From NCBI RefSeq assembly GCF_949628265.1, contig NC_088789.1, forward strand, positions 12,888,886-12,952,885: DNA of 64,000 nt, given 5' to 3'. This document shows positions 15,901 to 24,900 of the stretch, in pieces. A model generated the notes under the pieces. That model was not told the origin of the DNA and did not search any database. It worked only from the letters and a program-made list of their open reading frames with translations. The first letter of the stretch is position 1. Every line of letters begins with the position of its first letter. This DNA is from Cloeon dipterum (taxonomy: Eukaryota; Arthropoda; Insecta; Ephemeroptera; Baetidae). Made by a program: the position numbers and the translations under genes.

Positions 15901-18900
15901 AATGATTTTAAAGTCGTTTTCGGAATCCATTAGAATGAAGAATATAATAAAAATTGTTAGTCGCCAAATTCAGAAAAAAATTATAAATAGTATTTTAGCT
16001 TACATGGGCAGGTTTTACGCTTTATGCGGAGCACTCGACGCAAAAATAAATACATGCGTGAAGTACTAATGTGAGCATCAAATTCAATTGAGATTAATTT
16101 TATCACCATTGTAGATGAATAAATGAGTGCTCATTTAAGTTAAATATATTACCTTGCGGACAGATATCCTCAATAGACAGGGGTCGAGTATGCCTGTCGA
16201 GATGTTGGCCGACATTTTGCAAACGAATCTGAAATTGGCTCCCCATCGGACAGCGTGTTCCGTCACCTCCTCTCTGAAACAGCAAACCACGAAAGTTTAT
16301 TTAGGGAACTATCAAAAGAGATTCATAAATCATGCATAAAAATCTGGCGAAGTTAAACGTATGTGCCAATAAAATCAGTCATTCGAAGCGAAGAGTCAAT
16401 TAAGTAACATGGTCAGTTTTTTGTTACAAGATTTCACGCTCGACCAACTACTCATAAATATATGTTATATGTCATAAAATACATTGCTTAATCCCATAGT
16501 TACACGGGTAATAAGACAAGTGCCTCTCGAGCGAGTTTACTTTTTCGCAGTTACATATTCATACTACTAGGTCCACCTTCGCGCCGAATTCACTTTCACA
16601 TGTGACGCTCACAAGAAGCTGCGAGAAAATAAATAGAAAGTCACCACGCTTTTTTGCATTACAATTCAATTGCAGCTGGATCGTCTTTTGCCGCTTAAAA
16701 AGAACCTTGGCCTCGGCACGTCGACCAACATCTCTATATACGAAATCCAATATCTAGATTGCAATTTAAAATCCCGACGTTTGGACGGTCGTTAATAACA
16801 TTTTTCTGCGGTCAATGCAGCACTCTCTAACTCTGGGCGCACGATTTCGATGCAGCGTGTGCAAGGCCTGTCCAATTAATTGATATTACGTGGCCCGACA
16901 GAAATAAGTTCTGACTTCACGGATCTTCTTTCCCTTTACAATGACGATGCTTGCTCACGCTGCTGCAGTGGAAGCAAAGTGCGAACTCAAAAAGTGTTTT
17001 AATTTTCACAAATAGCGCCGGATATTGAGGTTAGCGCAAAGGGGAAGGACTAAACCCCTTCGTGTGCGGGCTGCTTTTATGTTGTGAACAAAAGCAAATA
17101 ATTCCCACTGCTTGACAAGCACGTTTGTGAAGTCGCAAACGACGCAAGCCATATGTAATAACAATATCCTAAATGCGAATTTGCACATTACGTATTTGCG
17201 AGGTGGGAAAAGCCAATACCACTTAGGCATCTTATAAGTGACGAGTAAAATGGCTTTTTGTAGAGCACTTAAGACTTTCCATGGATTGCACTATTATTTC
17301 CTCCTCGCCGTAAGTCTATGTTTGTCACGACAACCCAAGTGTCAAAACTGAAGCACAGCTTCGCGTGCTGCGTTCGAAAATAACCGCGAACAGGAAGAAG
17401 CCGTCTCGTCGTTTTGTGTTCCGAATTCAAAAATAGACCAAGTCGGTTTGACAGGTTACACGCGCGGCTCGCGTCCTCACTTGAGTGTTAATCAAAGTTC
17501 ACACAGGAGAGATTTGCGCGTCATAGTCAGTCTTCCTGCTCAACAGAATGGGCCTCTTCAGGGAAATATTTTAGGCAGGCGTCAAGGAAGCGTCACCCAG
17601 CTTTGTAATTACGTTGGTGGGCGAATGGAGAACTAAAAATAATCTCCGCGCATAAGCATGGATGACTGCTCTGCTCATTCCGCTTTATTTTTCTCTGGAG
17701 AGGAAAAATGAGGAAATGAAAGTGGACGGCGTGTGCAGTGCCAGGCTCTTCTTACCTCACAAACGCCACTCGAATCAGAAAGCGAATAAGCTCGATATCT
17801 TTTGTGCAGCTTTTGGTGAGCATCGGGTTATCCGGTAGTGATGTGCAAATTGAAATGGCAACGTCGCAGAGGGAGGGGCTTAGGCCAGCTGGGCATTGGA
17901 TGTTAGATGAGGAGTTGCCACGCTCGGTACTTTACTTTAGACACGGGATCAACCGCACGGCTAGTACGAAGGTGGACCTGACAGATTCAGGCGCTCAGGA
18001 TGTTTCAGGTCGTCAACATTAAGTTATTGTATTATGATAAATAAAGGAATAAAATTCAAATTGAATAAGAAACATTATTTTGCTATTTGAAACTAACAAA
18101 ATATAGTACTGAATTGAAATAAATTGTTACGCCGTCAGGTACTCGGGGCACAAGGTTAAATAAAACATTTCTTTTTAAAACAAGTTCATCCGCAGGAAAT
18201 GCCAAACAAATAAATTCACGCTGTTTAGTCACTAAGTAAAATTCCATTCTGACACTGGAATCTATTTAATTTGCCAATTTCCGGTACTCAGGGTCACAGT
18301 TTGAATACACGGAAAAAAGGTTGCACGATTTTTGAGTCGCGATTGTGCCATAAAATAATTAATTGGACCAACTGAAGAAAGAAAATCGATTTCCGATGCG
18401 GGAATTTAAATAATTCGCTTTTTCAGGTACTCAGGGTCGCAATTAAAAATCACGGGAACCAGTTTACACGACTTTCTCGACGGGAACGTGTCGCAGATAA
18501 TTAATTGGACCAACTGAAGAAAGAAAATCGATTTCCGACGCGGGAATTTAAATAATTCGCTTTTTCAGGTACTCAGGGTCGCAATTAAAAATCACGGGAA
18601 CCAGTTTACACGACTTTCTCGACGGGAACGTGTCGCAGATAATTAATTGGACCAACTGAAGAAAGCAAATCGATTTCCGACGCGGGAATTTAAATAATTC
18701 GCTTTTTCAGGTACTCAGGGTTGCAATTAAAAATCACGGGAACCAGTTTACACGGCTTTCTCGACGGGAACGTGTCGCAGATAATTAATTGGACCAACTG
18801 AAGAAAGAAAATCGATTTCCGATGCGGGAATTTAAATAATTCGCTTTTTCAGGTACTCAGGGTCGCAATTAAAAATCACGGGAACCAGTTTACACGACTT

Positions 18901-21900: not shown

Positions 21901-24900
21901 AGAAAATATTTTTGAACACATAGAAGTTAAGAAATCCGTGTTAACCAGTTTCGTTCAATTTTTATTAAAACCCTGAGATTCCTGAAATCGTTAAAAAAAT
22001 CAAATTAATTAGATTGCAGCATCCCAAATCGATTTCATATTGAACGTTTGCAAAGAAAATAGTTTTGAACACATAGAAGTTAAGAAATCCGTGTTAACCG
22101 GTTTCGTTCAATTTTTATTAAAACCCTGAAATAACCTGAAATCGTTAAATAAATCAAATTAATTAGATTGCAGCATCCAAAATCGATTTCATATGGATGG
22201 TTTGCAAAGAAAATAGTTTTGAACACATAGAAGTTAAGAAATCCGTGTTAACCGGTTTCGTTCAATTTTTATTAAAACCCTGAGATTCCTGAAATCGTTA
22301 AAAAAATCAAATTAATTAGATTGCAGCATCCAAAATCGATTTCATATTGATGGTTTGCAAAGAAAATAGTTTTGAACACATAGAAGTTAAGAAATCCGTG
22401 TTAACCGGTTTCGTTCAATTTTTATTAAAACCCTGAGATTCCTGAAATCGTTAAAAAAATCAAATTAATTAGATTGCAGCATCCAAAATCGATTTCATAT
22501 TGATGGTTTGCAAAGAAAATAGTTTTGAACACATAGAAGTTAAGAAATCCGTGTTAACCAGTTTCGTTCAATTTTTATTAAAACCCTGAGATTCCTGAAA
22601 TCGTTAAAAAAATCAAATTAATTAGATTGCAGCACCCAAAATCGATTTCATATTGATGGTTTGCAAAGAAAATAGTTTTGAACACATAGAAGTTAAGAAA
22701 TCCGTGTTAACCAGTTTCGTTCAATTTTTATTAAAACCCTGAGATTCCTGAAATCGTTAAAAAAATCAAATTAATTAGATTGCAGCATCCAAAATCGATT
22801 TCATATTGATGGTTTGCAAAGAAAATAGTTTTGAACACATAGAAGTTAAGAAATCCGTGTTAACCGGTTTCGTTCAATTTTTATTAAAACCCTGAGATTC
22901 CTGAAATCGTTAAAAAAATCAAATTAATTAGATTGCAGCATCCAAAATCGATTTCATATTGATGGTTTGCAAAGAAAATAGTTTTGAACACATAGAAGTT
23001 AAGAAATCCGTGTTAACCAGTTTCGTTCAATTTTTATTAAAACCCTGAGATTCCTGAAATCGTTAAAAAAATCAAATTAATTAGATTGCAGCATCCAAAA
23101 TCGATTTCATATTGATGGTTTGCAAAGAAAATAGTTTTGAACACATAGAAGTTAAGAAATCCGTGTTAACCAGTTTCGTTCAATTTTTATTAAAACCCTG
23201 AGATTCCTGAAATCGTTAAAAAAATCAAATTAATTAGATTGCAGCATCCCAAATCGATTTCATATTGAACGTTTGCAAAGAAAATAGTTTTGAACACATA
23301 GAAGTTAAGAAATCCGTGTTAACCGGTTTCGTTCAATTTTTATTAAAACCCTGAAATAACCTGAAATCGTTAAATAAATCAAATTAATTAGATTGCAGCA
23401 TCCAAAATCGATTTCATATGGATGGTTTGCAAAGAAAATAGTTTTGAACACATAGAAGTTAAGAAATCCGTGTTAACCGGTTTCGTTCAATTTTTATTAA
23501 AACCCTGAGATTCCTGAAATCGTTAAAAAAATCAAATTAATTAGATTGCAGCATCCCAAATCGATTTCATATTGAACGTTTGCAAAGAAAATAGTTTTGA
23601 ACACATAGAAGTTAAGAAATCCGTGTTAACCGGTTTCGTTCAATTTTTATTAAAACCCTGAGATTCCTGAAATCGTTAAAAAAATCAAATTAATTAGATT
23701 GCAGCATCCCAAATCGATTTCATATTGAACGTTTGCAAAGAAAATAGTTTTGAACACATAGAAGTTAAGAAATCCGTGTTAACCGGTTTCGTTCAATTTT
23801 TATTAAAACCCTGAGATTCCTGAAATCGTTAAAAAATTAGAATGCAGCATCGGAGAGATATTTTTTTGTCAGTTGGTCCAATTAATTATTTAATGGCACA
23901 ATCGCGACTCATAAGTCGTGCAACCTTTTTTCCGTGTATTCAAACTGTGACCCTGAGTACCGGAAATTGGCAAATTAAATAGATTCCAGTGTCAGAATGG
24001 AATTTTACTTAGTGACTAAACAGCGTGAATTTATTTGTTTGGCATTTCCTGCGGATGAACTTGTTTTAAAAAGAAATGTTTTATTTAACCTTGTGCCCCG
24101 AGTACCTGACGGCGTAACAATTTATTTCAATTCAGTACTATATTTTGTTAGTTTTAAATAGCAAAATAATGTTTCTTATTCAATTTGAATTTTATTCCTT
24201 TATTTATCATCATACAATAACTTAATGTTGACGACCTGAAACATCCTGAGCGCCTGAATCTGTCAGGTCCACCTTCGTACTAGCCGTGCGGTTGATCCCG
24301 TGTCTAAAGTAAAGTACCGAGCGTGGCAACTCCTCATCTAACATCCATTGCCCAGCTGGCCTAAGCCCCTCCCTCTGCGACGTTGCCATTTCAATTTGCA
24401 CATCACTACCGGATAACCCGAAGCTCACCCAGCTTTTTGTAGCTTTCATGTGTAACTTAATCTTGGATAATCATAAAGCGGGGAGATGCTGGTTTTAAAT
24501 CAGTGGGTGTCTGCGAAAAGAGAAATGACTCACTAGTAATGATATGCGAATCGAGCCCCTTTGAACATTTTTGAGATGTTGAATAAAGAAAAATAACTAA
24601 AAAATGGTTTGCCGTCAATTCACAAAAATTAACTGCAAATATGTAATTCAACATTGAAATTTTCAAGAGCTCCTTGTGTTCAATGACAAACAAGACATGT
24701 GTTTTCATTCCATATCCAGAAAAGAAAAGCACTTTCTCGTTGTCAAGCTGTTTTTCATAAATTTAGAAAATCCAAAGCCTTACTAAGCAGATGATTTGAG
24801 TCGAGAGTGAAATGCTTCTGTAAATAAACAGAACTAACCACGAACAACTATTCACAGTGGCTACAGTCGATCAAAATAAAGACACGCCCATCCAAACTTC

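Follow-up and report, generated by a model that had tools for sequence, protein, structure and literature searches.

A foldback transposon with satellite-like arms in Cloeon dipterum, very probably a deleted member of the Merlin superfamily

What kind of element is the large inverted repeat that lies in this stretch of Cloeon dipterum DNA, and which transposase family does it belong to? In the window (the whole stretch analysed, 64,000 nucleotides), the repeat had been described, in a sequence-only reading, as a foldback DNA transposon flanked by an exact 8-bp target duplication. The coordinates of that description proved correct to the base, and the arms, flanks, and opposed arrays are all present. 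The whole element occupies positions 17815-24429 (6,615 bp), starts with GGTGAGC and ends with GCTCACC, and is organized as follows.

17807-17814, plus strand: left target-site duplication CAGCTTTT, from sequence comparison
17815-18387, plus strand: left terminal inverted arm, first bases GGTGAGCATCGGGTTATCCGG, from inverted-repeat comparison and arm alignment
18355-20737, plus strand: left tandem array, 142-bp unit, 16.8 copies, 98% matches
20738-20852, no strand: short spacer separating the left and inverted arrays
20853-21249, minus strand: short 142-bp array in reversed orientation, 2.8 copies
21530-21685, plus strand: first recognized transposase exon, zinc-ribbon-like, ends taken from the copy on contig C1 (L009:5484-5639)
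21901-23836, plus strand: right tandem array, 153/154-bp unit, 12.6 copies, 97% matches
21902-21916, no strand: deletion junction at a short shared AGAAAATA..TTTT stretch, from comparison with the copy on C1
23857-24429, minus strand: right terminal inverted arm
24430-24437, plus strand: right target-site duplication CAGCTTTT, from sequence comparison

The two arms (573 nt each) are 98% complementary. The flanking CAGCTTTT sequences are identical over 8 bases and differ at the ninth; among 200,000 random draws of two 8-mers from the window, 10 gave equal pairs. Read in reverse, the 153-bp unit is distantly related to the 142-bp unit, and most long alignments of one array type with the other show 62 to 67% identity. 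Elsewhere in the window, positions 29609-29726 are a perfect (TC)59 microsatellite, and Rfam gave no match within the window at the gathering score.

A 540-bp arm query had full matches at no fewer than four places in the 190-Mb genome, namely, both arms of the window copy and a further pair on C1. The C1 arms belong to a complete copy of 13,330 bp (C1:13709874-13723203; hereafter the C1 copy), which has the same termini and is flanked by its own, different, exact 8-bp duplication, CAAAATCC; this second copy corroborated the proposed borders. Its left array has 15.5 copies of the unit, its inverted 142-bp array 4.8, and its right 153/154-bp array 32.9. A pattern of the element tip with up to three mismatches occurred at seven places, and the four exact ones were all ends of the window and C1 copies. 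We rejected the three additional tip-like places (one to three mismatches) as ends because they were fewer than the six places matched by the same pattern written backwards; no partner end for them was found in the flanks examined. Window positions 20853-21913, which include the inverted array, the exon, and its intron, are 99.3% identical to the C1 copy over 1,061 bp, suggesting that the two copies separated fairly recently.

Comparison of the two copies also revealed what the window copy lacks. Approximately 2.7 kb between the arrays of the C1 copy is absent from the window copy, in which the intron after the first recognized exon (about L009:5867) runs directly into the right array. The C1 copy is also approximately 780 bp longer between the left and inverted arrays (L009:3628-4405), and this segment was probably deleted from the window copy. 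Judged by this alignment, internal deletion has removed the catalytic exons from the window copy and left it a non-autonomous derivative.

When the second exon of the gene was used as a protein query, the genome gave a single additional match, 52% identical, which proved to lie in a distantly related element of 19,373 bp (C1:9527556-9546928). This relative has the termini GGTCCGGGTAGAG and GGTTTGGGTAGAG and the exact 8-bp duplication TGAAAATC, the only match when pairs of possible borders close to the arm ends were scanned, with the border at most 5 bases from the arm end. Its terminal arm extends for at least 523 bp at 99.6% identity, and the arms continue as inverted arrays of an approximately 160-bp unit, with 33.9 units on one side and 19.3 on the other. 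The relative thus combines GG termini, an 8-bp duplication, and inverted array arms, so the architecture recurs. GG termini were present at all six ends of the window copy, C1 copy, and distant relative, and all three elements have exact 8-bp duplications of three different sequences. With so few complete copies (two of the window/C1 family and one of the distant relative), it is the duplications that suggest that the elements have moved. A separate inverted repeat pair at C2:3666858-3668308, with 570-bp arms of 98% identity starting with AGTGTGTGTTCGGG, apparently represents a different foldback or MITE family.

The genes between the arms were modeled by hand, both in the C1 copy, where eight exons are recognized, and in the distant relative, and neither model includes a first exon; tblastx of both elements for a common upstream first exon gave a best match with an E value of only 0.40. 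The first 306 residues of the joined C1-copy exons matched DDE_Tnp_IS1595 (PF12762) with 50.6 bits, and the joined protein of the distant relative matched it with 58.2 bits, against a Pfam cut-off of 27 bits. Scanned singly, the DDE exons of the C1 copy scored 16.4 and 21.4 bits, under the cut-off, and a genome search with PF12762 found one place above it, inside the distant relative. The residues D114, D177, and E216 are identical in the two elements, and both gene models are open throughout. The two genes are colinear, with 39% protein identity over 654 columns, and the intron phase is equal at seven of seven junctions, a comparison that is not fully independent because the splice sites of the relative were partly picked with the C1-copy gene as a guide. 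Mismatches between the two genes at codon positions 1, 2, and 3 numbered 123, 87, and 193 in the 299 codons of the transposase part, 40, 43, and 54 in the 81 codons of the linker, and 126, 110, and 151 in the 252 codons of the C-terminal part. The third-position excess (p = 1.2e-16, 0.03, and 9e-4, respectively) indicates constraint that weakens toward the C-terminus. A relict of this transposon gene was seen at C5:1049454-1049717 (83% identity over 88 amino acids with two stops; 89% over 905 aligned columns at the DNA level), and no other matches to the element were found there in 7.9 kb.

These results bear on a different affiliation, in which the element would belong to Mutator, P (Galileo-like), or hAT, superfamilies with similar duplication lengths and, in their foldback members, long repeated arms. 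The architecture is identical, and most foldbacks seem to be Mutator elements with Galileo (P) as an exception, according to the available text of PMC4079207. However, the transposase of the element itself matches DDE_Tnp_IS1595, and other families are unconvincing: the sole other Pfam family listed for the joined proteins was at chance level (E = 0.15). A best match to hAT or P elements had been named beforehand as the outcome that would overturn the Merlin assignment; Pfam gave none in either joined protein at E values up to 10, although HMMER filtering discards many weak matches. The GG termini and the duplication length of 8 bp also suit Merlin, and we regard a Mutator, P, or hAT origin as very improbable. 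The Merlin assignment made from the letters alone is therefore upheld by the PF12762 match of the C1-copy transposase, the GG termini, and the 8-bp duplications. We consider it very probable that the window element is a non-autonomous, internally deleted cut-and-paste foldback of the Merlin superfamily, whose full-length sister encodes an IS1595-type DDE transposase and a conserved C-terminal domain.

The sequence-only reading had taken the first recognized exon for an ISXO2-like zinc ribbon. The exon is part of the transposase gene: it has no mismatches in 205 bp between the window and C1 copies, is 62% identical to that of the distant relative over 53 amino acids, shares C2, C11, C24, and C31 with it, and lies upstream of the DDE exons in both the C1 copy and the relative. 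Pfam, however, did not recognize the exon, returning no family for it at E values up to 1.

Both gene-bearing elements encode an additional conserved C-terminal domain of approximately 250 amino acids in frame with the transposase, at the following places.

L009:7142-8121: C-terminal domain, C1 copy
C1:9533447-9534854, minus strand: C-terminal domain, distant relative

The domain contains GxGDC[FY] and HF motifs and is 33% identical between the two elements. Its GGGDCFF...HF motif is reminiscent of OTU cysteine proteases. We rejected that reading, which lacks Pfam support: the OTU profile misses both elements, and a genome search with PF02338 listed eight places, none inside these elements. 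The joined C-terminal parts of both elements matched no Pfam family at E values up to 10, and a PDB profile search gave three chance-level matches only (E = 1.1 to 1.8). On viral contigs, where relatives were sought, the pattern of the whole alignment had 25 matches and that of the C-terminal part 28, none of which tblastn confirmed, and the titles and abstracts searched contained no association of Merlin with OTU.

The element was said to sit in an intron of a FAM102 gene. FAM102 proteins presumably bear an NT-C2 domain, and NT-C2 (PF10358) matches on the minus strand lie on both sides of the element, which supports the location, with one of the three above the Pfam cut-off.

50420-50557, minus strand: NT-C2 match, profile positions 1-46, one TGA inside, below the Pfam cut-off
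16147-16275, minus strand: NT-C2 match, profile positions 44-86, below the Pfam cut-off
15680-15871, minus strand: NT-C2 match, profile positions 80-140, the only one above the Pfam cut-off

To follow the arms, both arms of the window copy and both of the C1 copy were aligned, a comparison of few arms and few informative sites. Within columns 1-573, a 12-bp indel and three substitutions group the two arms of one copy, no sites group left with left, and column 8 pairs the arms crosswise; every other difference is confined to a single arm. In columns 574-575, at the inner edge, left agrees with left and right with right, which is expected at the end of the arm. The arms of one copy are thus more alike than descent alone would lead one to expect, which fits exchange between them, and such exchange may be the cause. 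Array units likewise differ between copies: in the left array, the variants 35G, 65G, and 99A are restricted to the window copy and 116T to the C1 copy, and 117G, present in 9 of the 15 full units of C1, is found in a single one of the 16 window units. The monomer core recurs in phase within the left arm at 18133 (15 of 24 bases) and 18278 (21 of 24), the next array copy being at 18421; one out-of-phase place in the arm also reached 15 of 24, and shuffled arms had 0.29 places with 14 or more. The 142-bp, 154-bp, and C2-satellite units agree in both CTCAGGGT and AAATCGATTT. The inner-arm unit also has CTCAGGGT unchanged, but its second half extends into the array and does not provide an independent comparison. 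Neither box is intact in the two outer arm units. By analogy with Galileo, these two boxes are candidate transposase-binding sites.

Genome search lists showed that arrays resembling the arm monomer also occur apart from the elements. The largest has a 143-bp unit and extends from C2:1132362 to C2:1187671 (approximately 55 kb; its ends were read and its middle only matched at many places), and its alignments with the left array, each longer than 2 kb, show 81 to 83% identity. Such free arrays could be taken to mean that the structure in the window is host DNA, either duplicated in inverted orientation or made up of two satellite arrays, that mimics a transposon. Against this stand the termini shared by two sites, the exact 8-bp duplications of all three elements, and the conserved transposase gene that the arms enclose, and we hold it to be exceedingly improbable.

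For the arrays only, it could also be supposed that the element captured an existing host satellite rather than seeding one, which is compatible with its identity as a Merlin foldback. After manual merging on C1-C5 and exclusion of an outer-arm-only match (C2:3020757) and of relatives of the second element's arm, the free arrays formed 27 loci, 21 of which lie within the outer 30% of the contig half, with the three elements further in. The deviation from a uniform distribution had a Kolmogorov-Smirnov p of 1e-7, a value that is too small since neighboring loci are not independent. The number of free arrays and their outlying position speak for capture; against it, the outer arms hold degenerate in-phase monomer cores (18133 and 18278), and the different monomer of the distant relative likewise makes up both of its arms. 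We give capture a sizable minority of our belief, and the relation between element arms and free satellites may run in either direction.

Sequence comparison establishes which transposase family is involved, the termini and duplications, the arrays, the internal deletion, and the likeness of the arms within a copy, and a mechanism can be proposed for the Merlin foldback. The transposase would presumably bind the GGTGAGC...CGG ends and excise the element, which would insert by cuts staggered by 8 bp. The arms are long inverted repeats built from tandem monomers, whose arrays lengthen and shorten inside individual copies; the outer approximately 560 bp would be kept alike as the arms of a copy exchange sequence with each other. 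The monomer boxes may serve as extra binding sites, as transposase-binding sites lie within tandem repeats in Galileo according to the available text of PMC3688188. In its fullest form, which we put forward tentatively and think rather doubtful, the proposal is a lineage of giant Merlin transposons in which the transposase is marked by fusion with a conserved C-terminal domain of a new kind and the arms are made of arrays of repeated binding sites, homogenized per copy, which would have seeded satellite DNA now mostly near chromosome ends.

The Merlin superfamily was reportedly described by Feschotte in 2004. In the available text of Lopes et al. 2021 (PMC8101967), Merlin elements have a DDE_Tnp_IS1595 transposase, GG termini, and 8-9-bp duplications, as the elements here have DDE_Tnp_IS1595, 5'-GG termini, and 8-bp duplications. 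Their terminal inverted repeats measure 24 to 462 bp, and elements described earlier are said to be without Zn_Tnp_IS1595, a domain that the paper itself predicted in a few proteins (PMC8101967); the curated bivalve consensus averages 1,635 bp, as given in the accessible part of PMC10294476. By contrast with the Merlins in these two sources as far as seen, our elements are 6.6 to 19.4 kb long, with 573-bp arms, multi-kb inverted arrays, and an extra C-terminal domain. Prokaryotic insertion sequences of the IS1595 family share a related DDE domain and 8-bp duplications, but Zn_Tnp_IS1595 is usual there and undetected by Pfam here, and arrays are unmentioned in that part of PMC8101967. Galileo, a Drosophila foldback of the P superfamily, has long, internally repetitive terminal inverted repeats, which in the longest D. 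willistoni copy contain approximately 140-bp tandem repeats and measure 4,246 and 4,680 bp; unlike our elements, it has a P-type transposase with a THAP domain and mostly 7-bp duplications (PMC4168063, PMC3688188, PMC3573991, available text). Tetris, a foldback of Drosophila virilis, also has arm tandem repeats (approximately 220 bp) that occur as free satellite arrays, but its transposase is not known, and its authors suggest Mutator from 8-10-bp duplications (PMC4079207, available text).

The sequence-only reading had also suggested that the architecture was new. We found no description of a Merlin foldback with satellite arms in the literature searched, which covered few subscription papers, and in that sense the combination of Merlin, foldback, and satellite arms appears to be new. 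Its parts are not: tandem repeats inside some Merlin elements, including a 163-bp unit in Symbiodinium, have already been described and proposed as proto-satellites (PMC8101967, available text), and foldbacks with satellite-seeding arms are known from Galileo and Tetris. As far as the accessible foldback literature goes, such arms are tied mainly to Mutator and P, and a Merlin foldback adds a further superfamily. Here, two transposase-bearing families that are 39% alike have this architecture in common. Since an apparently open transposase gene adjoins the arms, which Tetris lacks, the proposed roles of arm repeats as extra binding sites and as satellite seeds become directly testable.
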